From contig CALGZA010000048.1 in assembly GCA_937934595.1 (NCBI GenBank), forward strand, positions 1 to 35,935: DNA of 35,935 nucleotides, given 5' to 3'. Source of the stretch: an uncultured Verrucomicrobiales bacterium (lineage in GTDB: Bacteria; Verrucomicrobiota; Verrucomicrobiia; Verrucomicrobiales; Akkermansiaceae). Below are positions 3,015 through 20,271 of this stretch, in pieces (the stretch's first letter is position 1; every line of letters starts with the position of its first letter). Position numbers and translations under genes: made by a program. The notes under the pieces were generated by a model. It was not told the DNA's origin, searched no databases, and worked only from the letters and a program-made list of their open reading frames with translations.

Positions 3015-3221
3015 CTAACTAGTCCCTTTAACTCTTAATACCCCAGACTTCCCTCCGCCAAAAGAAGAGCGTTTAGCCCACGATTGTAATGAAACATAAT
3101 CAGTAAACCCATTCTCAGGTAGCAGATCTGCTTCAACAACCTTCCTCGCATTATCCGCCGTGAGCGATAATGATAACGAGAAAAACAGAAATAGTTTAAG
3201 ATGAAATTTCAATATAATCAC
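3015..3221 (-). CDS. small secreted protein translationally coupled to dioxygenase
   Basis: A 68-residue protein that I do not recognise. Residues 1-22 form a signal-like hydrophobic stretch, 'LKLFLFFSLSLSL', followed by a short polar mature part ending '...FGGGKSGVLRVKGTS'. It begins with GTG at 3221, overlapping the upstream gene's TGA stop by four bases (GTGA), the arrangement of translationally coupled genes. That overlap and the signal-like N-terminus are the main reasons to accept it. It could instead be a decayed or chance frame. Confidence 0.45.
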   Translation of the reverse strand: MIILKFHLKLFLFFSLSLSLTADNARKVVEADLLPENGFTDYVSLQSWAKRSSFGGGKSGVLRVKGTS

Positions 3222-3949
3222 TTCTTCCTCACAGCCTCAAACAAATCACCTTTCCCCTTATACCCATCAGAATCAACCTCATACCAGTTACTATCAGCGA
3301 TCCGCTTCTTATCATAAGGCGGTGCAAAAATATCCACCAACTGAGTAAACTCTTTCGCTGCTACCCGGTGAATATTCCTCTCCTTTGAAGTAAGCGTAGA
3401 AACATTCCCCTTAGAAAGCATCGCATGGCTAGTCTGCTTCAAAAGAACATCTCTCTTATTCGCCTTCTCAGCAAACAAATCATAATTCCAAACCTCAACC
3501 TCACCCGTAGCACAAAGTAAAACTCCCGTCATCTCAGGATGATCATGGTGCATGATCTGCTCATTCTTTTCAAACTGAACCAAAGTAACATGATAGTCGA
3601 TCTGCTTTTCTAGCCCAGAAAAATCCACGCGCTTATTACCCACCCCCTTCGCTTTCGTCTCCTTAAAAGCCTTCACCAAGCTTGGATCCCGCAGGTCGAG
3701 ACGCGCCGCAATAGCAGAAGCCTTCTTAACATACTCCAGCTCATTCCAGCTATCCAAATGCTGCTTCTTAGCCTCCACCTCAATAGCAGATAAAAACGCA
3801 TCCCAATTAATGGAACCATCCTCCTTCAATCTCCCCTGATAAGCATTCGCCCTCGTCGCAAAAGCAGTAATGGCAGGTAAAGCCATAGAAATCCCCAGAA
3901 AACCAGGTATCGAGGTCTTAATAAAATGCCTCCTGTCATAATCATCCAT
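3218..3949 (-). CDS. Tat-exported cysteamine/cysteine dioxygenase-like (PCO/ADO) cupin
   Basis: A 243-residue protein with a twin-arginine signal: 'DRRHFIK' at residues 5-11, a hydrophobic stretch to about 30, and a likely AxA cleavage at 'RANA'. From about residue 118 it resembles the PCO/ADO thiol dioxygenase fold (PF07847). 'HHDHPEMTGVLLCATGEVEV' at 134-153 gives H135 and H137 as iron ligands, H194 in 'NIHRV' fits the third, and the family's 'PPY' C-terminal motif is present in 'IFAPPYDKKR'. Residues 40-115 form a helical region not typical of the core. Family members oxidise N-terminal cysteine or cysteamine thiols in the cytoplasm, so an exported, folded-state Tat substrate is unusual. 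An AGGG lies just upstream of the start. The substrate is unknown. Confidence 0.72.
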   Translation of the reverse strand: MDDYDRRHFIKTSIPGFLGISMALPAITAFATRANAYQGRLKEDGSINWDAFLSAIEVEAKKQHLDSWNELEYVKKASAIAARLDLRDPSLVKAFKETKAKGVGNKRVDFSGLEKQIDYHVTLVQFEKNEQIMHHDHPEMTGVLLCATGEVEVWNYDLFAEKANKRDVLLKQTSHAMLSKGNVSTLTSKERNIHRVAAKEFTQLVDIFAPPYDKKRIADSNWYEVDSDGYKGKGDLFEAVRKK

Positions 3950-4038: not shown

Positions 4039-5124
4039 CTAAATCCCAAAACTACGCTTCACAGCAGCCCGCTTCAGCCCCAGCTCACGCCACTCATTCA
4101 CCAGCCGTGATGCCTCTATCACACCACACCCAGACGGAACCGAAATATCATCACCATCCCAGTGCACACCACGTATCGTTACCACAGCATGAAACTCACC
4201 CTCATCATAAACACCAAAAGGAGCACCAAAATAACCAGGACACCCCAATCTCTCGCGCCAACCTATCAAATCCTCCATAGTCTGCTGCGTCCTTGGTAAA
4301 GGCCCCAAAGCAGGAGTCGGGTGTAACCTCTTAATCAAATCATCAATATTCTTATCCCCATACAAAAACACCTCAATAGGCGTATGAAAATGCACCAGAG
4401 CCCCTAAATCCAAAATACTACGCTCACGCTTCGTAACCATCCCAATATCAGACAACTTAGATACCAACGTCTGAGCCACAAACTCATGCTCCCGGATCTC
4501 CTTCTCATCAAAAGCAAAAACCTCCTGCTCATCAGCCTTAGCAGTCCCCGCCAATGCCATCGTATTCAACCTGCCCTTCCTAAAATTAAATAAAACCTCC
4601 GGCGTCAAACCACAAAAACCACTATCACCACTCACCCACGCATAAGGAAAAAAAGCCTTCTCCTTGGTATTCAACTTCTCCAAAATGCAAGCAACCCCAC
4701 CACCTGAAATCTTCCCCCTCTCAGTAGCCACAGGCACAGACTTATCAATCTCACCTTTAATAATCGCCTGATTAATCTCAGAAAAAACCTGGGCAAAGCC
4801 ACCCACACTCAGATCATCCCAATCCACATCCAACCCACCAGAACAACCAGGAACCCTATCTAAAACCCTCACAGAACTAGGCACCTTCCACGGCTTCGCG
4901 TCACTAAGCGCAAAGTCATTCACATAAAAAGCCACACCATCACCAGGCTGAGGGCAACTCTCCTGCGCAGTAAAAGGACCCTCACCATACAGCACCTTTC
5001 CATCCGCCTTCTTCAGCAGAGCAAACTCTCTCGCTACTTCATTCATCAACCACAGAATAAACCGCATCACACCCCTATCACCAAGCACAAAATCAATCCC
5101 TCCAAACTCTAAAAAACAAACCAC
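4039..5124 (-). CDS. isochorismate synthase-like chorismate-binding enzyme
   Basis: A protein of up to 361 residues from the MenF/EntC/PabB/TrpE chorismate-binding family. Visible motifs are 'ALAGTA' at 190-195, 'EHEFV' at 212-216, 'LHPTPALGPLPR' at 267-278 and a C-terminal 'GVIEASRLVNEW...LGLKRAAV'. The HPTPA motif and short length favour isochorismate synthase (menaquinone or siderophore entry) over anthranilate or aminodeoxychorismate synthase. The usual 'RGxYaGxvG' segment reads 'GCPGYFGAPFGVYDEG', a divergence near the active site. The start is uncertain: ATG 5067 has AGGGG just upstream and would remove 19 poorly conserved residues. No other menaquinone genes are in the window. Confidence 0.75.
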   Translation of the reverse strand: MVCFLEFGGIDFVLGDRGVMRFILWLMNEVAREFALLKKADGKVLYGEGPFTAQESCPQPGDGVAFYVNDFALSDAKPWKVPSSVRVLDRVPGCSGGLDVDWDDLSVGGFAQVFSEINQAIIKGEIDKSVPVATERGKISGGGVACILEKLNTKEKAFFPYAWVSGDSGFCGLTPEVLFNFRKGRLNTMALAGTAKADEQEVFAFDEKEIREHEFVAQTLVSKLSDIGMVTKRERSILDLGALVHFHTPIEVFLYGDKNIDDLIKRLHPTPALGPLPRTQQTMEDLIGWRERLGCPGYFGAPFGVYDEGEFHAVVTIRGVHWDGDDISVPSGCGVIEASRLVNEWRELGLKRAAVKRSFGI

Positions 5125-5678: not shown

Positions 5679-8666
5679 TCATAAATTAGAAATCCACACA
5701 CACCCATAAGGCGCCAGTTCTATATGAGTATCATCCTGAGCCTTATACCTTTTACCACTCAACACATCTGTCCAAGTCTCTGTCGCTATCAGATTCAACT
5801 CAACCAGAGCTATACTCTGTGACTTGTCAGAAATATTATGCACAGCAAATATAGACTGAGACCTGCTCAAGCTCTCTCTCCAAAAACCAACAATCTGATC
5901 CCCTAAATGCAATGTATATTGAGTAGCATTCGGATGAAATGCTTCCTGTTCCTTTCGGATTTTAATTCTACGCCGTAACTCATCAAAAAGAACCTTATGA
6001 TGAAGCGCATCATCCCCAAGAGCAGATGATAGCTCCTCAGCATCCCATTTATAGCGGTTTATAGCACGCGCCTCCCCTGTATTTGCCATCCCCTGTGTAT
6101 TATTCTCCGTGCCCAAAAGACTATGAATATAAAACGCAGGTAAACCCTCTAATGCCAACATAATCGTATGCGCAGCAATAAAACGCTCGCCATTCAAATC
6201 ATCTTTCCCAGACTGAATCGTCCCAGCCATCGCACTATATAATGAAATATTAGCCTCATAAGGAGTCAAATCCCCCTCCGGTGTTCGCCGCATAGAAATC
6301 TCCCCACCAAACGATCGCAACGTACCAATAAGATCATCCCGCTCCCTCTCAGACAGAAGACCCTCAGCAGGTCGTAACCCTATCCCATCATGAGACGCTA
6401 TGAAATTTAAATACGCCCTTCCCCGCCGCGCTGGCGGCATTGAAACTATCCACTTCGTCAGATGCTTTGCATCACCACTAAGCATCGTATGCAGTAACAA
6501 CGGTGGTAAAGAAAAATTATAAATCAAATGAGCTTCATTCCCATTACCAAAATAACTCAAGTTCTCCTTATTCGGAACATTCGTCTCAGTAATGAGAATA
6601 GCAGATGGTTCCAAGCTCTCCACGATCAACCTTAACAACTTTATAACCTCATGAGTCTCATTCCTATGAATACAGTTCGTCCCATCCTCTTTCCACAGAA
6701 AAGCTACCGCATCTAAACGAAATATAGATATACCCTTATCCAAATAAAACTGAATAATCCGAATAAACTCTAACAAAACCTCAGGATTCGCATAGTTCAA
6801 ATCAACCTGATCAGCACTGAAAGTACACCACACCTGCTTCTCTCCAGAAACCGTCTCCACAGATGTCAACAATGGTGAACTTCGCGGCCGCACAACCTTA
6901 GTAAGATCCTCAAAATCAGATCCATCAATAAAATAATCCTTCCCAGGTGACTTCTCTAACAAATAATTTTTAAACCACTCAGACTCCCTAGAACAATGAT
7001 TAAGAACAAGGTCAGCCATAATGTTGAAATGCTTAATAATAGGCTCAATATCGGACCAATCTCCATGATCATCATTAATCTCCATGTAATCGATTACTGA
7101 AAAACCCTCATCAGAACTTGCCGGATTAAATGGCAAAATATGAACATTATTAACGTAAGGCTTTAACTCACGCTTCAAAAAATCATACAGAGTCCTCAGC
7201 GGTGCCTCATCCACCCTCCTCACAGAATCAGCATAAGTTATCAACATAACATCCTTCTCATCCCACTTATTAAGTTCAGGACTTGACTCAATAGCCCTCC
7301 TCGCCAAAGGCACAGTCTTGAAAATCTGCTCCGTAATCGCTTTCGCCTCAGACTCTCCATATATATTACGCACCCTCTCCGCCACCCCCTGCCTTACCTG
7401 CATCACCTTCGGATGAGTCATTATATCATAGCTAGATTGTGTTCCAAACTCAGCTCTATCTCCTTCCACTGCATCAAGTAACATATCCATAATATCCGGA
7501 ACTGCAGATATCACACGTTTCCAACCCGGCATAAACGGGGTCTCCATCGACAACTCAGGATTCAAGAAATCATTACCCGCCTGCATTATATTCTCTGCAA
7601 ACACCTCAATCGCATGCCCCTCAGTATGCATATCATAGTTCAACCCATTTATCGCAGCATCACTCTGGTAGCTATCCACTAAATCCAATGCTATTCGATA
7701 ATAAGTAGCCTTTATCGTCCTAATCCTCTCCTGTGTAAACACCTCCCCCTGAGTAGCCATCTTACGTATGAGCGACTTCGTAATATCCAAACTCATCTTT
7801 GATAATCCCTTCGTCTTATCACCCAAAGATAAATCCTGATGCTTGTGGTCATAAGTCTCAGCTATATCCACCTGACAAATCTGATTCGTTGCATAATTAC
7901 GCTGCATCTCAGACAATGTACCCATCTCAAGCCCCCAATCAGATGGTATCCGGATATCCTCTATAACATCACGAGATAAAGAAAACTCTCCAGCCAAAGG
8001 ATACCGAAAACTATCCATGAAATCCAAATACTCATTCGGCCCACAAATCTTCTTCAACGCCCTCAACAACGGAGTCACCAGTAAACGACAAGCCCGCCCA
8101 TTCATTGCATTATTAGCTATCCTCGCATAATAACCCTTACAGAACTTATAACTCAAATTAGGATTAGCTACCGGATAAATAAGCCTAGCCAATAAATCAC
8201 GCTCATAAGTAAGAATATCACAGTCATGAATAGCCACAGTATCCACCTTCCCAGAGGCCAAAATATAACCAAACATATACCATACATTCCTCCCCTTACC
8301 CGCCTGCTGAGGAGCCAAACCCTTCTCATGGAGTAACTTATCTATCCTCCTAAGACGCGGCCCATCATTCCATAAAACATCCGGATTCTGTGGTAAACGC
8401 TCAAAAAACTTGAGCGCCTTCTTAAACTGAGACTCATCAGCCATATCAAGCCCCACCACTACCTGATCCAAATACGGCACTTTAGAAATCTCATCCACAA
8501 TAGAACTCAAAGCAGGCCCCTCTAACTCAGAATAAAGCGAAGGAAGAATAAGCCCCATAGGCTTCTTCTTTCTGAACTCCAGCAGCTCCTCCTCTAAATC
8601 CTCCAGCGGCCTATTATTCAGTTGATGAAGCGTCGTAATCGTGCCGAATTGATGAAAGTCTCCCAT
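5679..8666 (-). CDS. GT81 glucosyl-3-phosphoglycerate synthase fused to GH13 glucosylglycerate/sucrose phosphorylase-like domain
   Basis: A 995-residue two-enzyme fusion. Residues 1 to about 400 resemble glucosyl-3-phosphoglycerate synthase (GT81): 'LILPSLYSELEGPA' at 39-52, 'LWNDGPR' at 98-104, 'AGKGRNVW', the metal-binding 'HDCD' at 147-150, 'FRYPLAGEFS' at 220-229, 'DWGLEMG' and 'YDHKHQDLS' at 272-280. Residues from about 470 to the end form a GH13 barrel of the sucrose-phosphorylase subgroup (GH13_18): 'NPASSDEGFSVIDY', 'LVLNH', nucleophile D652 in 'FRLDAV', acid/base E694 in 'TETNVP', and D760 in 'ASHDG'. GpgS joins NDP-glucose to 3-phosphoglycerate. The GH13_18 group includes glucosylglycerate phosphorylase, which would release Glc-1-P and glycerate. 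The two upstream operon genes supply phosphatase and glycerate kinase, supporting that substrate; sucrose or glucosylglycerol specificity cannot be excluded. Confidence 0.88.
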   Translation of the reverse strand: MGDFHQFGTITTLHQLNNRPLEDLEEELLEFRKKKPMGLILPSLYSELEGPALSSIVDEISKVPYLDQVVVGLDMADESQFKKALKFFERLPQNPDVLWNDGPRLRRIDKLLHEKGLAPQQAGKGRNVWYMFGYILASGKVDTVAIHDCDILTYERDLLARLIYPVANPNLSYKFCKGYYARIANNAMNGRACRLLVTPLLRALKKICGPNEYLDFMDSFRYPLAGEFSLSRDVIEDIRIPSDWGLEMGTLSEMQRNYATNQICQVDIAETYDHKHQDLSLGDKTKGLSKMSLDITKSLIRKMATQGEVFTQERIRTIKATYYRIALDLVDSYQSDAAINGLNYDMHTEGHAIEVFAENIMQAGNDFLNPELSMETPFMPGWKRVISAVPDIMDMLLDAVEGDRAEFGTQSSYDIMTHPKVMQVRQGVAERVRNIYGESEAKAITEQIFKTVPLARRAIESSPELNKWDEKDVMLITYADSVRRVDEAPLRTLYDFLKRELKPYVNNVHILPFNPASSDEGFSVIDYMEINDDHGDWSDIEPIIKHFNIMADLVLNHCSRESEWFKNYLLEKSPGKDYFIDGSDFEDLTKVVRPRSSPLLTSVETVSGEKQVWCTFSADQVDLNYANPEVLLEFIRIIQFYLDKGISIFRLDAVAFLWKEDGTNCIHRNETHEVIKLLRLIVESLEPSAILITETNVPNKENLSYFGNGNEAHLIYNFSLPPLLLHTMLSGDAKHLTKWIVSMPPARRGRAYLNFIASHDGIGLRPAEGLLSERERDDLIGTLRSFGGEISMRRTPEGDLTPYEANISLYSAMAGTIQSGKDDLNGERFIAAHTIMLALEGLPAFYIHSLLGTENNTQGMANTGEARAINRYKWDAEELSSALGDDALHHKVLFDELRRRIKIRKEQEAFHPNATQYTLHLGDQIVGFWRESLSRSQSIFAVHNISDKSQSIALVELNLIATETWTDVLSGKRYKAQDDTHIELAPYGCVWISNL

Positions 8667-8690
8667 AGTAATAAATAATAGTTAAAATGT

Positions 8691-9521
8691 TTAATGTGAT
8701 GTTAAAAGATCAAGAACAGAATCATTCCACCCTCTAGAAGATAGATCAGAAGCATAAATAATATGACCTCCATCAGGCTTAATCCTAGGCCCACCCTCAT
8801 GAGGAATCACTATACCTATATCTGCCTCCTCAAGCATAGACTTATCGTTAGCACTGTCACCTAAAGCTACAGTAACCCAGTCTAAATCCGGACTTTGTTT
8901 CTCATAGAGCCCCTTAACTACCCTTAGTCCATCAGCCTTATCTGACGGCCCCATCAAATGAACAAACTTCCCACCACGCAATGTCCGTATCTCATACTCA
9001 GACATCTCAGCCTTAAATTTCAACCACCGCTCCTCAGTATCATTCCAAAGGATCGGCTCAGATACATGACGGCGTTTAGCCAAACTCGCCGCATCTATGC
9101 TAAGCCCCGTCATATCAGATAACTTCTGACTGCTCCAATCACTAAACCCCTCAAAATCATACTCATTCTCATCCCTAAGTCTATGAGCCTGCTCCAAGAT
9201 AAAGCCTCGGGATAATCCAGTAATCAAATGCATAGACCCTTGCTCATCGTGCCAATTCTCACCACCCGCACTCATACAATAAGCAGTAAGCTCAGAGCCC
9301 GCAGGCACAGAAACCACACCACCATTTTCCGCTATCATTGGAGTCTTCAAATTTAATTCATGCGCCAAAAACTCACACTCACTTAATGTTTTACTCGAAT
9401 TAAATACCAATGGCACCCCTAAATCCTTAATCCTCTCCACAGCATCTATAGCCAACCTATACTCATACTTCTCATCTATAAAACTAGCATCGAGGTCTGT
9501 TATGATAAGAAATTTTTTCAT
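8691..9521 (-). CDS. HAD phosphatase of the mannosyl/glucosyl-3-phosphoglycerate phosphatase family
   Basis: A 276-residue HAD-IIB phosphatase. Motif I is 'TDLDASF' with nucleophile D9 and acid/base D11; motif II is 'NSSKT' at 41-45, the lysine is in 'GPSDKADG' at 191-198, and the final motif is 'GDSANDKSMLEEAD' at 221-234. 'MIAENGG' at 62-68 is also typical of the MpgP/GpgP/YedP family. It probably removes phosphate from the fusion protein's product to give glucosylglycerate; genomic context is the main support for this substrate. Motif I has Ala-Ser where Gly-Thr is usual. Its ATG overlaps the kinase stop by four bases, and the fusion gene follows after 24 bases. Confidence 0.87.
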   Translation of the reverse strand: MKKFLIITDLDASFIDEKYEYRLAIDAVERIKDLGVPLVFNSSKTLSECEFLAHELNLKTPMIAENGGVVSVPAGSELTAYCMSAGGENWHDEQGSMHLITGLSRGFILEQAHRLRDENEYDFEGFSDWSSQKLSDMTGLSIDAASLAKRRHVSEPILWNDTEERWLKFKAEMSEYEIRTLRGGKFVHLMGPSDKADGLRVVKGLYEKQSPDLDWVTVALGDSANDKSMLEEADIGIVIPHEGGPRIKPDGGHIIYASDLSSRGWNDSVLDLLTSH

Positions 9522-10429
9522 TGTAGTGTAGTAGATGAATCAGAATATTGATTTCTAACAATATGATGATCACGATCAAGTTCAAGTAAACAATCAACAC
9601 GCCCCGGCATTTCTTCAAACATCCAGCGCGTCAGCCGCTCATAATGCATAATAAAACGCTTAATCTGTCCATCATCCATCAGCTTACTACACTTCTCATC
9701 CAGCACCTTAGCTCGCAACTTCTCCTCCTGAACACTCCTCCATTCATACACACTTTCAAAATCAGGTGCTTTCAACATCACCAACTTATCCAAAAGACCA
9801 AACAGCTCCCTGTATTCAACAGCCAGCTTCTGATTGCAAAAAGCACGCCATTCACCACTAGTATCCTCAGTCTCCTCAAGCATATTACATGGAATAACAA
9901 GATCCTCCTCAGACTGAGCCTCAGCCCCCACACACCAACCCTCAAATAAAATCACATCAACCCGCTCATCGTAAATCAACCAGTCACTCTCAGGAGCCCT
10001 ATCATCAATAGACTTATCAAATACAGGTAAACTAACAGACTTCCCACACTTCATAGCCTCCAAGAGACCCACACCAAAAGCCACATCATGAGTCCCCGGT
10101 ACTCCCCTCGTCACTAACAAAGGATGAACTTCTTCAGCCAGAGCCTCACGCTCAGACTTCATAAGATATATATCATCAATCGATAATACAGCACAACGCA
10201 ACTGATGACTATGATGTAGAGCCAATTGAAGCACCTCACACATAGTAGATTTACCCGTCCCCTGTGCACCATTCACCCCAACCAAAAGTGGACTACCACC
10301 ACTATCCTCTGCCCATTCTACTATCCTATTCGCCAAAGGAATATAATAATCAACGGCTAACTTCCCAAAGTCAGCAGGAAGCAATTCACGTTCGAGAAAT
10401 AATCTTAGCCAATCAGGTAATAGGTTCAT
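9518..10429 (-). CDS. D-glycerate 3-kinase (GLYK-type P-loop kinase)
   Basis: A 303-residue P-loop kinase with 'GAQGTGKST' at 54-62, 'LSIDDIYL' (phosphoacceptor-site acidic pair), 'VTRGVPGTHDV' and 'LFEGWCVG'. These are the signatures of plant GLYK and related D-glycerate 3-kinases rather than the GarK/GckA families. The product, 3-phosphoglycerate, is exactly the acceptor used by the GT81 domain two genes downstream, and D-glycerate is what a glucosylglycerate phosphorylase would release. It is the first gene of the operon. The 195 bases upstream carry a motif shared with the SASA esterase promoter region. Uridine-kinase-like activity is a less likely alternative. Confidence 0.85.
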   Translation of the reverse strand: MNLLPDWLRLFLERELLPADFGKLAVDYYIPLANRIVEWAEDSGGSPLLVGVNGAQGTGKSTMCEVLQLALHHSHQLRCAVLSIDDIYLMKSEREALAEEVHPLLVTRGVPGTHDVAFGVGLLEAMKCGKSVSLPVFDKSIDDRAPESDWLIYDERVDVILFEGWCVGAEAQSEEDLVIPCNMLEETEDTSGEWRAFCNQKLAVEYRELFGLLDKLVMLKAPDFESVYEWRSVQEEKLRAKVLDEKCSKLMDDGQIKRFIMHYERLTRWMFEEMPGRVDCLLELDRDHHIVRNQYSDSSTTLQ

Positions 10430-10575
10430 TAAGAGTGAGTTTGTATATCAAAATGCACATCTGTAAACGTCAGACGCTAAATACATAGAAATACCAAAGC
10501 ACACACCATGCCAAAATAAACAAAAAAACACCCCAAATCTATAACCCCATCACTACAAAAGAGACGGATAACAAA

Positions 10576-10598
10576 TCATAAAAATCTAGATCTGAAAT
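10576..10598. promoter_or_regulatory. shared 23-bp motif, copy upstream of glycerate kinase
   Basis: This 23-base stretch with a central TCTAGA matches 13276-13298 at 20 of 23 positions in the same orientation. Its CTAG core lies about 160 bases before the glycerate kinase start; the other copy lies about 97 bases before the SASA esterase start. A 7-bp inverted repeat (GACGGAT 10563-10569, ATCCGTC 10597-10603) brackets it. A shared operator or a flanking direct repeat are both possible. Confidence 0.35.
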
Positions 10599-10624
10599 CC
10601 GTCCAATAAAAAAATGCCCTCGCC

Positions 10625-13186
10625 CTATGGTTTAGTAACTCTCACTCGGAAAAACATCTGAACCTTCTGAGGCCCCGTAACAGTAGCCTCTACAGCCACC
10701 GTTTCATAACCAGCCTCTGGACCAGCAATTACCGATTTCTCTATCATATCAACCGTATTAGCTCCATCAGTAGAAAAACCATCTCCCCCAAACCATCCAA
10801 TGAGCTTGTTAGACCACTGATATATATCCGTAACACCCCTCCGGTCAATAGGCCTTAAATGAGTAAATTCAAAAACACTAGATCCAGTTTTCACAGGATT
10901 TAGGATCTGTCGCTGATCACCAGCAAAATACCACTCTAAACCATTAGACACACCATCATTATCATCGTCTCCACTAAAACCACCATTTATTCCATTTGCG
11001 CCAGCCCATATGTCAAAAGGTGTATCCATATCTAACAGTGTCTTCATCTCGCCAGCCATAGAATCACCTATCAAATAATAAGATCCAGCATTCCTATTCC
11101 AGTGAAACCCTTCATCCCTTGGTGAATCCGCAACGGGAAAATTAAATAGCTTCGTATCAACCACTCCCACATTATCCCTAAAATCCGGGTAATCACCAAA
11201 GTTCTTCATCTGTAACTGCGCTAACTCAATTTGAGTGAAATTTCCATTATCAACCATTCCCGAAGTAGCGATTACAAAAGGTAATTTCGGAGCACCTAAT
11301 GACAACCTCACATCCTTAATAAACTTCTCCATATTAGATTCATACTCAGCTGAAAATGCCTGAGTCACCCTATCATTCCACCCCTGATGCCAACCAAAGC
11401 CCACTAACTCACAACCATCGGCTGGATTATAACCCGGAAAATCATTCGCTATATTAGACCCCGCTTCCACTATAAGATCTAACATCTGCTTGTAGTAAAA
11501 ACCCTGGTCTCCCTCAGAAACTGGAGTGTCACGGTTCCATCCAGCACTCGGAGGACGGAAATCTGCACCCAGACTCTTACCACCCCATGCTACTTTTATA
11601 ATTAATACCTTCTCATTATAATGATCAGCCATCGCATGACCAAACTGTAATTCCGGCCCTATCCTAGCAGGGTTAGATCCAAAACCAGTCGATACACCGC
11701 CTTTCACCAAGTCAGTTCCCTGTCGCTTAAACCATATCCACGCATCATCACGCACCCTCCATGAACCTCCAGTCTTCAGATGACCATAGGTCGCAGTATC
11801 ATTAGCATAAATAGTCTCTAATGTCCCAGGAGTCCCTAGTGGTAACATCTCACCCTGTCCCTCAGTGTTAGATTGACCAGCTAGTATGAAAATTTTCATC
11901 TTATTATTGCTGCTGGTAGGCGTCTTGAAAGACCAAACATCTCCAGTCATAGTTCCCTGACCATTCACTTGGTCAACACGCCAATAATAAGTAGTTCCAG
12001 CCGTAAGCGCCCCTATGCTCATCGTATTCCCAGCCACACTACCCTTAAACTCCGTATTATCAGGTGTCGGGTCTGTTCCAAAATAGACCTGACTACTAGA
12101 TGCTGTTGCAGATGCTCCTTTTTCCCACTTCAATACTCCTGCATTGGTCGCAACCAAAGGCATTCCATCATAAGGCATTGGCCTAAATGCCTTAGCCGGT
12201 GAACCCACCTGAAAACTCCAAACCACTCCAGTAGTCACACCATCACCATTTACCTCGTCAACTCGCCAGAAATAGGTCCCATTGCCTAAACTCCCCGGAT
12301 TAAAAGTATTACCTGTCTGGTTCCCCCTGAACTCACTATTGTCAGGAGACGGATCAGTCCCAAAATATACATTACGGGTAGTTCCATCAACTCCCGCAGT
12401 CCAACTCAGAGTTACATTAGAGGGCAAACCCAATAAATTGGTAGCAGGCGTAGGATTAGAAGCTTGCCCCGGAGGAACCACGCCACTCGTATCCTCTATA
12501 ATCTGAAATCCACTTGGTCCAATATGATTAAAGCCATTCCCCCACACTTGTAACGAGAGATTACTGCTTCTTAACTTAGTAAAAACTATATAATTTCCAG
12601 GAGTAGTATCGTTAGTAATTTCAATAAAATTACTAAATCTACCCGCTGGAAGAGTAAAACCCTGCTCTACTCCATCATTAACTACTATTTTACCCTTACC
12701 GTCTGCAAACTGATCTCTATTAGCTCCTATATAAACTACTAACGTATAAAGATTGTAGGGTATATTGGTCACATCCATATCAAACTTATTTGAACCATCA
12801 CCAGGATCTTCAGTAGCATTACAGTGACCATCCATCAGATCTCCATTACCATTATCTGGCACCGGCGGTGTATGAGCTATATCACTCCGATAAGGCCCAC
12901 CATTCCGCAAATCATTCAGAATCATCGTAGCTGCATTACCCTGAACACTCGTGATCGTCACCGGTGCCTGAGGTGCTATTGGACTCCAGGGAGTCAAATA
13001 GTTATTCCAGCCACTAGTATTAAAAGCCCCAACCCCAGCAGATTCATTAGCCTCAAGTGTCACCTTGTCCCGATCCGCTACTGGCAAATTACTATAAGCG
13101 TAAAAGCTCACACTAATCTTATCCTGAGCACCTGAAACTAGATAACTCAGCAGAAAAGCACTAAGAACAAATAAGGTTTTCTTCAT
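10625..13186 (-). CDS. secreted SASA-type (sialate O-acetylesterase-like) esterase with Fn3-like repeats
   Basis: An 853-residue secreted protein. A classic signal peptide, 'MKKTLFVLSAFLLSYLVSGA', starts at 13186, which I prefer over the in-frame ATG at 13213. A beta-rich N-terminal domain spans about 22-235. Two tandem fibronectin-like repeats (about 245-330 and 335-422) share 'YFGTDP(S/T)PDN(S/T)EF' and 'YxWRVDxVNG'. An SGNH/SASA esterase domain begins near 428 with 'LAGQSNTEGQG' (nucleophile Ser about 439) and ends with 'DEGFHWN', carrying the catalytic His. The C-terminus has a Ca-binding 'DDDNDGVSNGLEW' and ends '...FRVRV'. It probably removes acetyl groups from polysaccharide; the substrate is unknown. 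GC skew is nearly absent here, unlike neighbours, and similar 23-bp elements lie on both sides. Confidence 0.85.
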   Translation of the reverse strand: MKKTLFVLSAFLLSYLVSGAQDKISVSFYAYSNLPVADRDKVTLEANESAGVGAFNTSGWNNYLTPWSPIAPQAPVTITSVQGNAATMILNDLRNGGPYRSDIAHTPPVPDNGNGDLMDGHCNATEDPGDGSNKFDMDVTNIPYNLYTLVVYIGANRDQFADGKGKIVVNDGVEQGFTLPAGRFSNFIEITNDTTPGNYIVFTKLRSSNLSLQVWGNGFNHIGPSGFQIIEDTSGVVPPGQASNPTPATNLLGLPSNVTLSWTAGVDGTTRNVYFGTDPSPDNSEFRGNQTGNTFNPGSLGNGTYFWRVDEVNGDGVTTGVVWSFQVGSPAKAFRPMPYDGMPLVATNAGVLKWEKGASATASSSQVYFGTDPTPDNTEFKGSVAGNTMSIGALTAGTTYYWRVDQVNGQGTMTGDVWSFKTPTSSNNKMKIFILAGQSNTEGQGEMLPLGTPGTLETIYANDTATYGHLKTGGSWRVRDDAWIWFKRQGTDLVKGGVSTGFGSNPARIGPELQFGHAMADHYNEKVLIIKVAWGGKSLGADFRPPSAGWNRDTPVSEGDQGFYYKQMLDLIVEAGSNIANDFPGYNPADGCELVGFGWHQGWNDRVTQAFSAEYESNMEKFIKDVRLSLGAPKLPFVIATSGMVDNGNFTQIELAQLQMKNFGDYPDFRDNVGVVDTKLFNFPVADSPRDEGFHWNRNAGSYYLIGDSMAGEMKTLLDMDTPFDIWAGANGINGGFSGDDDNDGVSNGLEWYFAGDQRQILNPVKTGSSVFEFTHLRPIDRRGVTDIYQWSNKLIGWFGGDGFSTDGANTVDMIEKSVIAGPEAGYETVAVEATVTGPQKVQMFFRVRVTKP

Positions 13187-13543: not shown

Positions 13544-15790
13544 CTATTCGGCACTTTTACGAACCATCTTCTCGTATAGCTCCTTATCTAACTCCTCAAG
13601 TTCGATGATTCCATTAAGTAAACTAGTAGAAACCCAACCTACCCAGCTCCGGTTCACACCCACCCCTCGCGACGGCGCCAAACTATAATGCTCCTGTTTC
13701 CAGCCAGCACCCCTTAAATCATAATCCCTGCCCGGCATCGCAAGCATAGACTTAGTATTGTGCAGTAAAATCATCGCAACATCATAATAATGCCTATCTC
13801 CCGTCTTCAAATAAAGCTCAGCAAACTCATCCACATCATAAGCCATATACTGATCCACTAAACTATGCCCAGTCGCTATCAACTGTAACCCAACAGTGCT
13901 AACTCCCTTTTTCCAGTCCAGATCCTTATCGTCAACATCCTCAGGCATCGGAACATCCCAAATATAAATCCAAGTCTCAGCAAAATGAGCAGCAACCTTC
14001 GCCCTAGTCAACCACTTCTTATCACCCGTATGCGCATACAATGCCAAATAAGCTTCTAATGAAATAGTACCCGCCTCCTTATCAATCACATCAGGATTAT
14101 CAGAAGTGCCACCCACAAATATCCCCCTCGAATGAGAATTCCTCCAACAAAAATCTCCAGCCCTCATAGCAGCAACACCATATTTCTTCTCACCCGTAAG
14201 TCGCTCCAATAAAACCAAAAAACCAATCACATTATAACTAGAATGCGGAGACCCATCCAGCACCTTGCCAGTCTTATGCTCCCACACCCTCGGAAAACCA
14301 CCCTCCTCAGATTGCTGTGGTATCAACCAGTCAGCAAATGATCGAGACCAAGCCACCCACGCATCACGCTTCACACCATACTTCTTCTCCCGCTGCACAG
14401 ACTTAAGTAGTTCCTTATGTCCATCAGTAAGCGAGCGTAAATAAACCCTCCCCTTTTTAGTAAATGGTGCACCACCAGCAGATATTCCCTCACCCTCAGG
14501 TGGAGACATCCCTAACTTTAAAAAAGATCGTATCGCAGACTCACCCAGCACCTTATACTTACTCTCACCCTGACTCCCCTCACGTCGAGCACTCTCTAAC
14601 AAATAACCAGCTCCCTCCAGCGCCCGGCCCGCAAACCCCATACGTGAATTAAACCAAGCATTCTTCCCATCCTTCTTTAGAGCAGACACCCCCATCTGTA
14701 AGCCCGTTGCACCTTTTCTCGTCCATGTCATCTCAGCCAAAACAGCAGTTACATGCCGCCTAACAGAATCAATATCATGATAGGCTACCTGAGGCTTCAG
14801 TCTCTCCCAAGCCCAGCGCCAAGCATTAGAATAATAATCAGCAAAATTCTCATCAAAACTAACCCTGAATGAAACCTCATAACTCTGCTTGTTTCCCTTA
14901 TCTACAGCATGATAACGCCTCGACCACTCCTTCAATTGACCATGAGGATACGTTCTTCCCTTATAGGTTATACCCCCCTCAGAACCCGGAAACCAATAAC
15001 CAAATGACGATTTACCATCTATAAAATCAACTCCCACAGCGCCAAACAATAACCCATCAGACACTACCACATTAGACTTCGGCGCCTTCGAATCCATACC
15101 TATCGTCCGCCCATCAGGCTTCGTATTTAGAACGGTTATAGACATCCCACCTCCAAATCGCCCACCTATCATAGGTGCAGGTAACCTATCCTCCCTTATA
15201 CGTATATAATCTGTGCAATCACTGCCACCTATTGCAGCCTTCGTTAAACTCCCCGTTCCACCATATATCATCCCAGGCGCAAAAAGCTCCACAGAATCAC
15301 GGGATGCCTTAGCATGTGATAAAAGCGTAACTCCACTCATAAAACCATGCAGCTTATTAACTCCCAAACCCTCAATAACTTCCAACTTACGAGCTAGCTT
15401 CAAACACCCCCCATCAACCTTCCAATGGTCAACAACCTCAAAACGAGCTTCCTCATATCTCATCAAACTCCTTCCCACATACCCATCTCCCACAACCTCC
15501 AAAACATCATACCCAGAACGCAACCTACCAGAAACTTTATCCCCCACAAATACCTCAATAGAAATCGGCTCAGGATTAGCAAAAAGAAACTTACCATTCC
15601 GCTCAAGAATAAGCCCCCATTTACCTCCCTCACCTTTACCAAAAAAAGGAACAACCTCACCCTTCATCACAGGCAAACTCTGCCGAGCCTGACTTGTATC
15701 AAAAGAAAATAAAAAGAGGCAAATAAATAGCTTAACCAATATCAATACAGGGTAGCCCCTCAAACATAAATGATGAACTTGTAAACTCAT
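13544..15790 (-). CDS. secreted protein with beta-sandwich plus alpha/alpha-toroid fold, function unknown
   Basis: A 748-residue protein that I cannot assign to a named family. The N-terminus has a signal-like segment, 'LVKLFICLFLFSFDTSQA' (about 19-35). Residues 40-330 look beta-rich, with many G/V/D turns and 'SFGYWFPGSEGG'. From about 340 it is helical, with repeated helix-hairpin features such as 'AWRWAWERLKP', 'GFLVLLERLTGEKKYGVAAMRAGDFCW', 'ISLEAYLALYAHTGDKKWLTRA' and 'ELYLKTGDRHYYDVAMILL', like the (alpha/alpha)6-7 toroids of glycoside hydrolases and polysaccharide lyases. Its neighbours are also secreted carbohydrate-related proteins. A role in glycan breakdown is inference; no catalytic residues could be named. 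Confidence 0.65.
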   Translation of the reverse strand: MSLQVHHLCLRGYPVLILVKLFICLFLFSFDTSQARQSLPVMKGEVVPFFGKGEGGKWGLILERNGKFLFANPEPISIEVFVGDKVSGRLRSGYDVLEVVGDGYVGRSLMRYEEARFEVVDHWKVDGGCLKLARKLEVIEGLGVNKLHGFMSGVTLLSHAKASRDSVELFAPGMIYGGTGSLTKAAIGGSDCTDYIRIREDRLPAPMIGGRFGGGMSITVLNTKPDGRTIGMDSKAPKSNVVVSDGLLFGAVGVDFIDGKSSFGYWFPGSEGGITYKGRTYPHGQLKEWSRRYHAVDKGNKQSYEVSFRVSFDENFADYYSNAWRWAWERLKPQVAYHDIDSVRRHVTAVLAEMTWTRKGATGLQMGVSALKKDGKNAWFNSRMGFAGRALEGAGYLLESARREGSQGESKYKVLGESAIRSFLKLGMSPPEGEGISAGGAPFTKKGRVYLRSLTDGHKELLKSVQREKKYGVKRDAWVAWSRSFADWLIPQQSEEGGFPRVWEHKTGKVLDGSPHSSYNVIGFLVLLERLTGEKKYGVAAMRAGDFCWRNSHSRGIFVGGTSDNPDVIDKEAGTISLEAYLALYAHTGDKKWLTRAKVAAHFAETWIYIWDVPMPEDVDDKDLDWKKGVSTVGLQLIATGHSLVDQYMAYDVDEFAELYLKTGDRHYYDVAMILLHNTKSMLAMPGRDYDLRGAGWKQEHYSLAPSRGVGVNRSWVGWVSTSLLNGIIELEELDKELYEKMVRKSAE

Positions 15791-15839
15791 ACCCTATCTA
15801 TACTTTGTTTATAAAATATCTGCCTCCTATTAAGAAAAA

Positions 15840-16685
15840 CTAATCTTCAATCTCCTGTATCCATATATTACGGAACTTCACAGGATTACCGTGATCCTGC
15901 ATCTTCAAGAACCCCTTGTCATCATGCTTCTTATATTCAGCTGCAGAATGAGGCCCTCTCCAGCCCGTAGCTCCCGTTAACTCAACATTATCATGAATCA
16001 CGATCCCATTGTGCACCACATGAAACTTAGCTCGCCTGGTTACCTCACCTTTTTCATTAAACTTCGGTCGGTGAAAAGTAATGTCATATGTCTGCCACTC
16101 TCCAGGCTTGCGACTAGCATTCACAAGCGGAACGGCACGGCCATAAAGTGCACCACACTGACCATCAGGATAAGTCACATTGTTATAACTATCAAGAACC
16201 TGAACCTCATACTGACCCATCAAAAACACACCACTATTACCACGGCCCTGCCCCTCTCCCTTCACATCCTTAGGTGTCGCAAATTCTATATGCAAACGAC
16301 AAGAACCAAACTTCTCTTTACTCTGAATATAACCAGCCCTTCGAACTGACTCCATAGCTCCATCTACAAGCTTCCATTTAGTCTGACCACCTTTCCTATC
16401 TGTCCAGTTCTTAAACGTTGCCTCCGTACCATCAAAAAGTATCTTTGCATTCGCAGGTGCCTTCGCAGCCTCAGCATCATAAGCCTTAGGCGTCACCACC
16501 TTAGGCTGTGGCTGCTTAGCTGGATCAGTCTCATGAACCTTGATCCCATCAATGAACATATACTCTACCTTCTTACCATTCTCCTCACGTATCTCTTTTG
16601 TCACAACAGGATTAGCTGATACAGATAGAGTTAAACTACCTGCAAATGCCATCATTGCCGATGTATATAATGTCTTTTTTTTCAT
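15840..16685 (-). CDS. secreted 3-keto-disaccharide hydrolase (DUF1080) family protein
   Basis: A 281-residue protein with signal peptide 'MKKKTLYTSAMMAFAGSLTLSVSA'. The start at 16685 is preferred because it gives a normal signal, while the open frame begins at 16712. From about residue 75 it matches the DUF1080/3-keto-disaccharide hydrolase domain (PF06439, a concanavalin-like sandwich): 'ILFDGTEATFKNW', 'EFATP', 'GRGNSGVFLMGQYEVQVLDSY', 'GALYGR', 'GEWQTYDI' and terminal 'PVKFRNIWIQEI'. Family members cleave 3-keto-glycosides made by FAD/NAD oxidoreductases or bind glycans; no oxidoreductase partner is in the window. It is transcribed divergently from the large PDZ/toroid protein. Confidence 0.88.
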   Translation of the reverse strand: MKKKTLYTSAMMAFAGSLTLSVSANPVVTKEIREENGKKVEYMFIDGIKVHETDPAKQPQPKVVTPKAYDAEAAKAPANAKILFDGTEATFKNWTDRKGGQTKWKLVDGAMESVRRAGYIQSKEKFGSCRLHIEFATPKDVKGEGQGRGNSGVFLMGQYEVQVLDSYNNVTYPDGQCGALYGRAVPLVNASRKPGEWQTYDITFHRPKFNEKGEVTRRAKFHVVHNGIVIHDNVELTGATGWRGPHSAAEYKKHDDKGFLKMQDHGNPVKFRNIWIQEIED

Positions 16686-16800
16686 AATTCTTATTTGTAT
16701 TGATTGAGTCATATTCTCTCAGACAACTAAAATGACAGAATGACCTCATAATTAAAGTTAATTGTGAACTCCAGTTAAGCCCCTCATAAATTCTCTATAC

Positions 16801-16860: not shown

Positions 16861-19800
16861 ATGAAACACCAACCTACAAAAAAAATTGGCATCAACACTT
16901 ATTTATGTCATAAACCACAAATGTGTTTAAATGCTTTAAAAAAAATCACTCATAAATCAGCTTACTTAGCGCTCCTCACCCTATCAGTGTTTCAATTCAC
17001 TCATGCAGCCAATCCTGACTTAACAGCCACAGGCATCATCAATCAATTGAAAAACGATACCGAAGAAACATTCTTCCCTCGCTACATCGACACCTTCAAC
17101 CTCGGCCCCACTGGCCTCCGCGGATGGTTCCCTCTAGAAGACACTGATAACCCTGGAGCAAACAGACACTCACACATCAGCCGCCAAATCCTAGTTACCC
17201 ATGTCGGAGACAACACTCCCGCCGCCACTATATTTCAAGTAGATGACGTTATCCTTGGCGTATCTTGGGGAAATAATACGAGCGTCACTAACTTTACCAA
17301 AGACGCCAGAGTCTCCTTCGGTGAAGCCATCGGAGAAGCAGAAAAAAACGCTAATGGAGGCATCCTCAGAATCAAACGCTGGCGTGCAGGTAACACCTCT
17401 ACTGTCCAGCTCACTCTCCCCATCATGGGCGAATACGCTACAACCGCACCATACAACTGCCCAAAGTCTGCAAACATCCTCCAAAAAGCATACAATATCA
17501 TCGATGCCCTACCCGCTAGAAACGGATGGACCGGAGCCATCGAAGGACTCGCCATGCTTTCCACTGGCGAAAATCGCTTTAATGAAAAAATCAAAGCAAT
17601 AGCATCCATCATCTCCCAAGAACAAATAGCTTTAGAAGACGGATTCTCTACATGGGATGCCGCCTATGAACTCCTTTTCCTCTCAGAATACTATCTCATC
17701 ACATCGGACGCAGCCGTTCTTCCCGCCATCAAGCGCTACACCACAGCTCTCAGTAATGCACAAGGAATCAACGGAACATACGGCCACAACAGTTCACTTC
17801 CAAACGACGACGGCTCCCCAAACGGACCAGTCCCATGGTACGGACCGATGAACAATGCCGGCATAATTGCAAACTTGTCACTAGTCGTCAGCAAAAAAGC
17901 TATCGAAGCCAGCGGCGAAACCGTCAACAAAATAGTCACAGACGCCATCAAAAGAGGTAACGACTTTTTCCGCTCCTACGTTAACAAAGGAAGCATCCCA
18001 TACGGTGAACATGAACCCCATCACGGGCGCGACAACAACGGCAAGCAAGGCTCTGCTGCCGTGTTCTATGCCCTCCTTGGAAACCAAAAAGAAGCCCAAG
18101 AAGCATACGCCAGATGGTGCATATCTACATTTATTTACGAAGAAAAAGGACACACCGGCTTCGCATTCAGCTACATCTGGACCATGCTCGGCGCCCATAC
18201 CGCTGGCGATGCCGCAGGATCAAGTTACTTCAATGAAGTCAAATGGAATAGAGACATATCACGCAGACCAGATGGATCATTCTCCTATGATGAAGTCGAA
18301 AATGAACAACTAGCAGATCACACTCCAGCCGATGGCAGCCTAAACTACTGGGAAAAACTTCGCTACTACGACCTAGACGCCACAGCTATGTTCATTCTCC
18401 AATATGCCGCCCCTAAGAAAAAACTCCTCATCACAGGAAGAAATGGCTTTAACGGATCTACAATAGACGCCAACAAAATCGCAAACTCACTTTGGGCTGC
18501 TACTTCCCCATACCTCATGGAATCCGCAACCACAACAGAACTTCTAGACCATCTTAATGACTTCGATCCCTTGGTCCGCCAAGGAGCCGCCGCAGAATTA
18601 GGTGAGAGAACTTCAGAGCATCTCACCATTAAAGACTCTCTTATCAGCATGTCAAAAAACATGAACGACACCAATGCCCGTGCCGGCGCATGTTCAGCAC
18701 TTGCTTTCATCGGTCGTAACGATGCCGCAGCAGCTCTAGGAGAACGCCTTCAAGACCAAGACCCATGGGTAAGAACAATGGCAGCAAAAGCCCTATCCAC
18801 TATGGCTAAAGAAGGACATACCCAGCAAGCAAGCTCCCAAATATCAGCCCTTGCTAACGCCCTCATCAATAACATCCCAGCCAACGGCCAACCCCTCACA
18901 AACGACCCCCTTCAGTTCTCTAACGCAAAAATCGCCGAAACCCTATTCGCCACCATCGAATTCCGTGACGATATTAAAGCACTGCCTAAAAACATCTACC
19001 ACCAAGCACTTAAAACAGCACTGCAATTACCAGCGGGCGGACAACTTTATAAAATCGCACCCTTCATCAGAAATCAATTAACCCTAGCAGACACAAAACA
19101 AATCGCCCCAGACCTAGTCAAAGTAATTAAAAATAGAACATCTTCAGATCAATTCTTCAGCGTTCATATTCGTAGAGCAGGTCTAGCAGCTCTGGCAAAA
19201 TACCGCATTGAAGAAGGCATCCCACTCGCTCTTCTCCTTCAAGAACAAACCTGGGACTTAATGACAGATAACCCATTCACATTCGATGAAAACTCTCCAT
19301 ACTTCGAATTAGACAACTACATAGAACCTATAGCCATCCTCAGAGATCAATACGGCACTTCAGCTAAAGACACCATTCCCACTCTAGAAAAATGGCTAGC
19401 AGTCGATAACTTCGACCTCGCAGACAATGAAATAAATTCTGTCAAAACTCACATCAATGCCGCCCTTGCAGTCCTCAGAGGTAACTCGCCTTCTCCAAAT
19501 CTAGAATTCTTCAAAACAGTCTCCATCCAGTCAATCATTCCTACAGGAGCAAACTCAGCTAAACTAACCGCGCAATCAAACGATCTTGACGCCGGCTCAC
19601 ACCGCTACATTTGGAAAAAAATCAACGGCCCAGGAAATATCACTTTCTCATCAAACAATAACCCCAACAGCAAAATCACAACGGCTCAATTCAGCAAACC
19701 TGGAACCTACACCATCGAAGTAGGCGTAGTAGACAATGATATCCTTAACAAATCCGTATGGACTGATACGCAGCTCGGATACATAGACTTCAAAACCTAT

Positions 19801-20271
19801 GAAAGCAACATAGGCATGGTCAAATCAGCCCCAAAAACCATTACCTTCAACACTTCTGCATATCAGTCATGGGCTACAGACCCCACTCTAGGACTCACCT
19901 CAGGCATCAATGATGGGTTCCAGCAAGACCCTGATGGAGACGGCGTTCCAAATCTCATCGAATTCGCTACCGGAAACTCCCCTATAAGCCCTTCAAACCA
20001 AATCCTAACATTCTCTGTAGTAGACTCAACTACCGCTTCAGTAGAATTCAAAAGAAACCCAGAAGCCGTATCTAACGACTTCTCCATCATACTAGAACAC
20101 AGCAACGATTTAGAAAGCTGGAGCCAAATACCCATCCCACCAACAACCCTTGAACCAGTCGAAATCACAACCGGAACCAGCATTGACACTATCAAAGTAT
20201 CCATACCCCATAACGGCATAAAGAGCTTCGCCAGATTAAGAGTCACATCTAACAATATATCATCTAACTAA
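16861..20271 (+). CDS. large secreted PDZ-like / alpha-toroid / HEAT / PKD-like protein (DUF6288-like)
   Basis: A secreted protein of up to 1136 residues. The signal ends near 'FQFTHA' at about 49; starting at Met21 (16921) would give a more normal signal length. After 'NLGPTGLRGWF' (80-90) comes a PDZ-like domain (about 108-190) with 'QILVTHVGDNTPAA...FQVDDVILGV'. About 200-530 is an alpha/alpha-toroid-like region with 'GWTGAIEGLAML' and 'HHGRDNNGKQGSAAVFYALLG'. HEAT-type repeats follow (about 545-700; 'DPLVRQGAAAELGER', 'DPWVRTMAAKALSTM'), then a PKD-like domain (about 890-975) and a C-terminal module with 'DPDGDGVPNLIEF' near 1023 and 'SFARLRV'. The first part resembles Verrucomicrobia/Planctomycetes DUF6288 proteins from memory. 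Catalytic function is unknown. Strand skew is weaker than in neighbours. Confidence 0.75.
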   Translation: MKHQPTKKIGINTYLCHKPQMCLNALKKITHKSAYLALLTLSVFQFTHAANPDLTATGIINQLKNDTEETFFPRYIDTFNLGPTGLRGWFPLEDTDNPGANRHSHISRQILVTHVGDNTPAATIFQVDDVILGVSWGNNTSVTNFTKDARVSFGEAIGEAEKNANGGILRIKRWRAGNTSTVQLTLPIMGEYATTAPYNCPKSANILQKAYNIIDALPARNGWTGAIEGLAMLSTGENRFNEKIKAIASIISQEQIALEDGFSTWDAAYELLFLSEYYLITSDAAVLPAIKRYTTALSNAQGINGTYGHNSSLPNDDGSPNGPVPWYGPMNNAGIIANLSLVVSKKAIEASGETVNKIVTDAIKRGNDFFRSYVNKGSIPYGEHEPHHGRDNNGKQGSAAVFYALLGNQKEAQEAYARWCISTFIYEEKGHTGFAFSYIWTMLGAHTAGDAAGSSYFNEVKWNRDISRRPDGSFSYDEVENEQLADHTPADGSLNYWEKLRYYDLDATAMFILQYAAPKKKLLITGRNGFNGSTIDANKIANSLWAATSPYLMESATTTELLDHLNDFDPLVRQGAAAELGERTSEHLTIKDSLISMSKNMNDTNARAGACSALAFIGRNDAAAALGERLQDQDPWVRTMAAKALSTMAKEGHTQQASSQISALANALINNIPANGQPLTNDPLQFSNAKIAETLFATIEFRDDIKALPKNIYHQALKTALQLPAGGQLYKIAPFIRNQLTLADTKQIAPDLVKVIKNRTSSDQFFSVHIRRAGLAALAKYRIEEGIPLALLLQEQTWDLMTDNPFTFDENSPYFELDNYIEPIAILRDQYGTSAKDTIPTLEKWLAVDNFDLADNEINSVKTHINAALAVLRGNSPSPNLEFFKTVSIQSIIPTGANSAKLTAQSNDLDAGSHRYIWKKINGPGNITFSSNNNPNSKITTAQFSKPGTYTIEVGVVDNDILNKSVWTDTQLGYIDFKTYESNIGMVKSAPKTITFNTSAYQSWATDPTLGLTSGINDGFQQDPDGDGVPNLIEFATGNSPISPSNQILTFSVVDSTTASVEFKRNPEAVSNDFSIILEHSNDLESWSQIPIPPTTLEPVEITTGTSIDTIKVSIPHNGIKSFARLRVTSNNISSN

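Follow-up and report, generated by a model that had tools for sequence, protein, structure and literature searches.

A probable fusion of glucosyl-3-phosphoglycerate synthase and glucosylglycerate phosphorylase within a putative four-enzyme osmolyte cycle of a verrucomicrobial operon

In Synechococcus PCC 7002 the genes gpgS, ggaP and gpgP (A2021-A2023), which specify the synthase (GpgS), the phosphorylase (GGaP) and the phosphatase (GpgP) of the compatible solute glucosylglycerate (GGA), are clustered (PMC10873239; this and all other papers given by PMC number are drawn upon here in excerpt). Neighbourhoods that combine GGaP with glycerate kinase, GpgS or GpgP are known as well; the specificity of GGaP had in fact been inferred from such neighbours, and the exact metabolic function of the enzyme has not been confirmed by experiment (PMC7178133). 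Here we analyse a stretch of 35,935 nucleotides (contig CALGZA010000048.1, positions 1 to 35,935; hereafter the window) from an uncultured Verrucomicrobiales bacterium of the family Akkermansiaceae, in which the same enzymes for the same solute appear to be encoded but in which, unlike the separate proteins of Synechococcus, GpgS and GGaP would be part of one polypeptide.

On the basis of sequence comparisons we hold with good confidence that three genes of the window encode a closed four-enzyme GGA cycle, a judgement that covers the identities of the enzymes and the cycle as such and not the benefit of the fusion. The fusion itself is real and conserved, and the joining of these individually known enzymes in a bifunctional protein is probably undescribed. 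We found no description of it in the literature searched, which included the excerpts of PMC7178133, PMC11009771, PMC10873239 and PMC12057145, and it was likewise absent from those of PMC13342039, PMC11046441, PMC3899277, PMC7522525 and PMC2874817; the 2017 paper that defined GGaP may mention it.

Domain layout and active sites of the fusion protein

The gene, its domains and the residues that identify them are located as follows (fused rows are defined below).

5679..8666, minus strand: GpgS-GGaP fusion gene, 995 amino acids, ATG start, a single unbroken frame; the same fusion in 47 of 59 loci
7443..8666, minus strand: putative GpgS domain (GT81-type), residues 1 to about 408, matched by NF040724
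8217..8225, minus strand: D148-C-D150, putative metal-binding motif of the synthase, aligned with DSD of mycobacterial GpgS
7404..7442, minus strand: linker, about residues 409-421 (some 13 residues), between the points where unfused GpgS proteins end and unfused GGaP proteins begin
5682..7403, minus strand: putative GH13_18 GGaP domain, about residues 422-995 including an N-terminal extension, assigned with TIGR03852, the YcjM alignment, trees and a motif test
6711..6713, minus strand: D652, putative catalytic nucleophile, in 51 of 51 fused rows
6579..6590, minus strand: TETN signature (residues 693-696) with the putative acid/base E694, in 50 of 51 fused rows with one gap, and the same in YcjM
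6387..6389, minus strand: D760, putative third catalytic carboxylate, in 50 of 51 fused rows with one gap
6255..6257, minus strand: E804, the loop-A glutamate that marks GGaP, in 50 of 51 fused rows with one gap; glutamine in all eight paralogues that resemble sucrose phosphorylase

A first-pass annotation, made from the letters of the window, had proposed this fusion, and its coordinates proved exact, the uninterrupted frame lying on the minus strand, which it had not given. Its motifs and residue numbers also fall exactly where it had placed them, i.e. HDCD, FRYPLAGEFS and YDHKHQ start at residues 147, 220 and 272, and D652, E694 and D760 lie within RLDAVAF (from 650), TETN (from 693) and SHDGIG (from 758).

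For the N-terminal half, the proposed membership of the GT81 GpgS type agrees with three kinds of comparison. The NCBIfam model NF040724 (GpgS_Meth) matches residues 3-406 over its whole length (E 2e-104, 349.6 bits). The AlphaFold model of this half (predicted local distance difference test score, pLDDT, 87.0; predicted template modelling score, pTM, 0.86) has GpgS of Mycobacterium tuberculosis as its top match in the PDB (5jqx, E 1e-10, template modelling score, TM, 0.73 on the target; Foldseek), and the first 41 among the 50 matches listed are GpgS, the mannosyl homolog MpgS of R. xylanophilus or unnamed mycobacterial homologues, a comparison of folds that cannot separate GpgS from MpgS. 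Finally, K124, D148, D150 and E247 align with K114, D134, D136 and E232 of the mycobacterial enzyme, and H274/H276 lie near its H258 (roles of the site residues taken from PMC2581804). In the 51 fused rows, i.e. those left after seven apparent re-fetched copies of the same genomes had been removed by hand, these six residues show zero substitutions, with a gap in one row at some sites (D148 and D150 are each present in 50 rows, the remaining row being a gap).

The C-terminal half is matched by TIGR03852, the NCBIfam model of sucrose phosphorylase, over residues 472-951 (E 2.5e-56, 191 bits), and, taken as a 570-residue query, is 38% identical to YcjM of E. coli over residues 1-567. The GH13 triad D652, E694 and D760 is intact, as had been claimed, without a substitution among the 51 fused rows. 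As the same holds for the synthase site, the first-pass view that both sites look intact and that the fusion is not decayed is borne out, and decay of either half is ruled out as an explanation.

GGaPs are marked by (T/S)ETN at strand 5 and by a loop-A glutamate in place of the glutamine of most other clades, and loop A of sucrose phosphorylases reads N(L/V)D(I/L/V)YQ (PMC7178133). The window phosphorylase has TETN and a loop A of PYEANIS, which does not follow the sucrose phosphorylase pattern; YcjM, which is annotated as glucosylglycerate phosphorylase, has TETN and PYEINVT. As controls we used eight other GH13_18-like matches from the window's phylum. All eight of these sucrose-phosphorylase-like (SP-like) paralogues keep the triad, yet carry EVHE or EIHS together with YQ, and in the tree a branch with 100/100 support sets them apart from 21 window-type domains and YcjM. 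On these motifs the reading as a sucrose phosphorylase was rejected. In addition, the genomic context from which GGaP specificity had been derived is found in full, with GpgS, GpgP and glycerate kinase all three present in the window operon. The marks carried by this half thus support its assignment as GGaP, and the TETN signature, the loop-A glutamate and the operon with a predicted phosphatase and D-glycerate kinase together support what the first-pass annotation had assumed, namely that the phosphorylase acts on GGA.

No regulatory domain was seen in the linker, as fused and unfused ends match up with a short and variable stretch between them. In the AlphaFold model of the whole chain (pLDDT 86.3, good for each domain) linker residues 411-420 have a pLDDT of 68 and the arrangement of the domains is uncertain (pTM 0.65), and the geometry between them was left unused. 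An internal start that would yield a free phosphorylase was considered and rejected: a methionine occurs at residues 408-428 in just 15 of the 51 fused rows, so that there is no conserved ATG start, GTG and TTG lying outside this check. In a Foldseek search with the whole chain, amylosucrases rank first by E-value, with longer alignments, and several GH13_18 enzymes reach a higher TM on the target (up to 0.86); no subfamily claim is based on this result. The host genome (3.15 Mb, 123 contigs, 95.9% complete) holds no match to the fusion gene other than the gene itself (E 0.001).

The operon and the putative glucosylglycerate cycle

Two genes precede the fusion gene on the same strand.

8691..9521, minus strand: putative GpgP-type HAD-IIB phosphatase, 276 amino acids, 24 bp upstream of the fusion (TIGR01486; matches to MPGP in the PDB)
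9518..10429, minus strand: putative D-glycerate 3-kinase (GLYK type), 303 amino acids, overlapping the phosphatase gene by 4 bp (ATGA)

The phosphatase scores 173.3 bits with TIGR01486, above the cut-off of 164.75. The solved relatives of the kinase are headed by the D-glycerate 3-kinase 6ckg (E 7e-18) and the GLYK 7xpc (E 4e-17), followed by the unnamed yeast-type protein 1odf (3e-12) and uridine-cytidine kinases (6e-8).

The predicted activities can be arranged in a cycle. The N-terminal half of the fusion would convert nucleoside diphosphate (NDP)-glucose and 3-phosphoglycerate to glucosyl-3-phosphoglycerate (step 1), from which the adjoining GpgP would remove the phosphate to give GGA (step 2). 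The C-terminal half would then split GGA with phosphate into glucose 1-phosphate and D-glycerate (step 3), and D-glycerate would be returned to phosphoglycerate at the expense of ATP by the adjoining GLYK or, in other genomes, by a GlxK-type kinase encoded elsewhere (step 4). In the cell step 3 would serve breakdown, pulled by the kinase, step 2 would drive synthesis and step 4 breakdown, and the direction would be set by these two irreversible steps together with phosphate and ATP. The first-pass annotation had placed synthesis and phosphorolysis of one solute in a single chain. The fusion and its two enzymes stand; the synthase, however, would yield only the phosphorylated precursor, which needs the separate GpgP before GGaP has a substrate, so that the polypeptide alone does not accomplish both. 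With the phosphatase step lying between the two reactions, no direct hand-over of product between the two sites is expected either. What the fusion would do is fix maker and breaker at 1:1 and in one place, such that the pool may be reset quickly when salinity falls. Since all four enzymes running together would waste nucleotide triphosphates, some control is to be expected, perhaps through phosphate, salt or an intermediate as the first-pass annotation had suggested, and no extra domain that could provide it was seen in the fusion protein.

In 46 of the 47 fused loci the phosphatase gene lies immediately upstream of the fusion. The exception is L055 (loci and genomes are numbered with L and G), where the fusion occupies 8001-10973 and neither of the two genes upstream of it hits a Pfam or NCBIfam model at the thresholds applied. 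GLYK is present in 16 of the 41 fused loci that have at least 1.9 kb of upstream sequence. The order of the four genes in the window recurs in the unfused loci L061 and L071, which implies that it predates the fusion or was transferred.

The kinase was followed in 24 fusion genomes, all within G000-G292; in G003 and G008 the fusion gene is cut by contig ends, and G421, with a 64% match over residues 800-994 only, was excluded. GLYK is present in 15 of them and the unrelated GlxK-type glycerate kinase (PF02595) in 10, none lacks both, and a third type (PF13660) was found in none of the 24. The two co-occur only in G246, whose PF02595 match is split in two, with four stops in one of the pieces. 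Members of the window's own genus are found on both sides of this split. Among 20 fusion-free genomes, some of them with a distant match to a synthase or an amylase-family protein, PF02595 is present in 15 and GLYK in 0, the GLYK search having been run there without an internal positive control and with a query that worked in the fusion genomes. If the broken gene of G246 is taken as absent and relatedness is ignored, the exclusivity amounts to 7.6e-7, the reciprocal of the number of possible placements of nine genomes among 24; as the genomes are related, these exact odds are not a test. One type of glycerate kinase is intact in each of the 24 genomes, the operon kinase taking the place of the usual one. 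This supports the notion that D-glycerate is a product to be salvaged, and hence that breakdown is the main direction.

In four loci the kinase and the phosphatase are also joined in one frame, adjoining the synthase-phosphorylase fusion.

L050, 430-2196: kinase-phosphatase fusion (Pontiellaceae)
L051, 6172-7965: kinase-phosphatase fusion (Lentisphaera), 594 amino acids, kinase-type matches between residues 50 and 191, phosphatase at 331-585
L052, 1712-3442: kinase-phosphatase fusion (Pontiellaceae)
L053, 6259-7989: kinase-phosphatase fusion (Pontiellaceae)

With the cycle running from 3-phosphoglycerate via glucosyl-3-phosphoglycerate, GGA and glycerate back to 3-phosphoglycerate, each protein of these loci holds alternate steps (1 and 3; 4 and 2) and no consecutive steps are joined. 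One can imagine that the two proteins make up a physical cycle, in which a complex of GpgS-GGaP with GLYK-GpgP, the latter split over two genes in the window, passes each product to the partner and acts as a turnover rheostat; if so, the solute pool would be set by adjusting a continuous turnover within one assembly and not by switching separate enzymes. The alternation is the pattern expected of such an assembly. Neutral joining of neighbours yields the same pattern, given the gene order kinase, phosphatase, synthase, phosphorylase, and we consider the assembly a tentative and somewhat doubtful idea.

Distribution and origin of the fusion

The first-pass annotation had pointed to a search for the domain architecture across genomes as a check. 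Scanning named bacterial genomes with peptides of the window protein, a procedure that under-samples distant forms, gave 59 loci, of which 47 are fused by their reading frames, 10 are unfused in tandem (L061, L063, L069-L075 and L077, from Pseudomonadota, unclassified marine bacteria and one cell labelled Hydrogenedens), and in 2 (L064 and L065) the contig breaks off shortly beyond the junction. Among the named strains with the fusion are Rubritalea profundi, R. marina, Lentisphaera marina and Coraliomargarita sp. Within the window's phylum a full-length fused match was found in 14 of 387 genomes, the window's own included. The window's genus (g1) has the fusion in 9 of 12 genomes, again including its own, with two cut by contig ends; the 20 listed members of genus g3 of the same family gave no match to the fusion protein. 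In other Verrucomicrobiota (L085-L087) a phosphorylase of this kind is encoded no more than a few kb away from a different gene resembling a synthase, the product of which is 24-25% identical to the window GpgS over about residues 120-317.

In the tree of the phosphorylase half, rooted with YcjM, 53 fused rows form one clade (Shimodaira-Hasegawa-like approximate likelihood ratio test, SH-aLRT, 98). The fused rows of the synthase tree do so save for one unfused long branch (L019); holding them together is not rejected (approximately unbiased test, p-AU 0.344), and in a tree made without L083, L084 and L019 the fused and cut rows are one clade (SH-aLRT 93), L083 and L084 being outgroup rows with very long branches that do not fall on one side of a branch. 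A single origin accordingly has strong support in the case of the phosphorylase half, and for the synthase half it is not rejected. Rows from Lentisphaerota, Kiritimatiellota, Planctomycetota and Hydrogenedentota within the fused clade suggest transfer, some of them being metagenome bins that may be contaminated. With regard to the event itself, both genes of the unfused loci L061 and L063 lie in one frame, separated by a single stop codon, after which ATG comes one codon later in L061 and immediately in L063, so that the fusion could arise in a simple way if a stop were lost. Readthrough of this stop would produce a fused protein in L061 and L063.

Further genes of the window are an isochorismate-synthase-like gene downstream of the fusion (4039-5124, minus strand; TIGR00543, E 1e-39, below the cut-off) and, next to it, a gene with a PCO_ADO domain (3218-3949). 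At 13544-16712 (minus strand) a 748-residue protein with only a weak GH127-like match adjoins a protein with a 3-keto-disaccharide hydrolase domain, and 16861-20271 (plus strand) encodes a 1136-residue protein with DUF6288, HEAT repeats and a weak PKD-like match.

Alternative readings and comparison with known systems

Several observations weigh against the proposed identities and cycle. Both halves score below the curated equivalog cut-offs: the synthase half misses the 700 bits of NF040724, and the phosphorylase half misses the 334 bits of TIGR03852. As NF040724 is named for methanogen proteins, the former lowers the certainty of exact equivalence only, and YcjM (221 bits) is also below the latter. 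The solved GpgS and MpgS structures at the top of the fold search share just 16-21% identity with the synthase half, for which the donor sugar may be either glucose or mannose. The substrate call for the phosphorylase draws on two published motifs, the 38% identity with YcjM and gene context, and in the tree YcjM branches off first, outside the window-type phosphorylases, at a weak 65/44. The mutual placement of the two domains in the model is not confident. Furthermore, GLYK is missing from the neighbourhood in 25 of the 41 fused loci for which the upstream sequence is long enough, and L019, an unfused GpgS from a genome (G025) that gave no phosphorylase match, sits inside the fused synthase clade.

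Among the alternatives, an error of assembly or annotation that joined two genes, which the first-pass annotation had named as a point on which its proposal could fail, has a practically negligible probability: genomes that were assembled independently, among them those of Rubritalea profundi, Rubritalea marina and Lentisphaera marina, carry the same fusion at 56-83% identity. It is also very unlikely that the substrate of the phosphorylase half is a different glucoside (sucrose, sucrose 6-phosphate or glucosylglycerol), in which case the fusion would join unrelated pathways. The closest solved relatives are indeed sucrose and glucosylglycerol phosphorylases, and TIGR03852 is a model of sucrose phosphorylase, but the TETN signature and loop-A glutamate fit GGaP and YcjM and not the EVHE or EIHS plus YQ of the SP-like paralogues, and the operon of GpgS, GpgP and glycerate kinase points the same way. 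A reversal of direction deserves somewhat more weight, although we still think it quite unlikely: the phosphorylase half might be a second synthase that makes GGA and phosphate from glucose 1-phosphate and D-glycerate, giving two routes in one protein, as the reaction can run either way and D-glycerate is bound well by GGaP (KM 1-5 mM; PMC11009771). The operon kinase would then compete for glycerate, and the presence of a glycerate kinase in 24 of 24 fusion genomes fits glycerate as a salvaged product. Moreover, cellular phosphate is usually far above glucose 1-phosphate, which counts against synthesis by this route as well.

The most serious contender concerns not the identities of the enzymes but the benefit of joining them. 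The fusion may be functionally meaningless, i.e. it may have arisen by loss of a stop between co-translated neighbours and have been inherited with the two domains working independently, for which we see a chance only a little short of even. The in-frame genes of L061 and L063, one stop codon apart, and the variable linker that adds no domain are what it would lead one to expect. The fusion nevertheless appears to have one origin and is kept in 47 loci with no clear re-splitting (L019 being a possible loss of the phosphorylase), and the other two enzymes have undergone a second fusion in Lentisphaera and Pontiellaceae; retention and second fusion are both also compatible with neutral drift. 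If the proposed cycle holds, the conserved covalent link between synthase and phosphorylase, with kinase and phosphatase adjoining, suggests that marine bacteria of the Planctomycetes-Verrucomicrobia-Chlamydiae (PVC) group treat making and breaking of the solute as one unit. The fusion moreover offers a single protein with which the function of glucosylglycerate phosphorylase can be tested, and the double fusion of Lentisphaera and Pontiellaceae allows cyclic turnover of a bulk osmolyte to be tested with two.

Compared with its nearest characterized relatives, the window protein shares TETN, the loop-A glutamate and an N-terminal extension with E. coli YcjM (GH13_18, EC 2.4.1.352), which is a stand-alone enzyme encoded beside a putative ATP-binding cassette (ABC) transporter, and the lysine, DxD, glutamate and histidine of the site with the GT81 enzyme GpgS of M. 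tuberculosis, to which it is about 19% identical and which has no phosphorylase domain. An osmolyte fusion near a phosphorylase is also found in Marinobacter, where ggpPS (a fused glucosylglycerol-phosphate phosphatase/synthase) adjoins a glucosylglycerol phosphorylase (PMC10873239); ggpPS, however, joins two consecutive steps of synthesis, whereas GpgS-GGaP would join synthesis with breakdown. Likewise, the bifunctional mannosyl-3-phosphoglycerate synthase/phosphatase (NF011072, going by the name of the model) is a fusion from the sister osmolyte pathway, but one of two synthetic steps. Maker and breaker are united in one chain in PFK-2/FBPase-2 and in RelA/SpoT, which act on signals; in the GpgS-GGaP protein, by contrast, they would act on a bulk solute, with a third enzyme standing between the two reactions.

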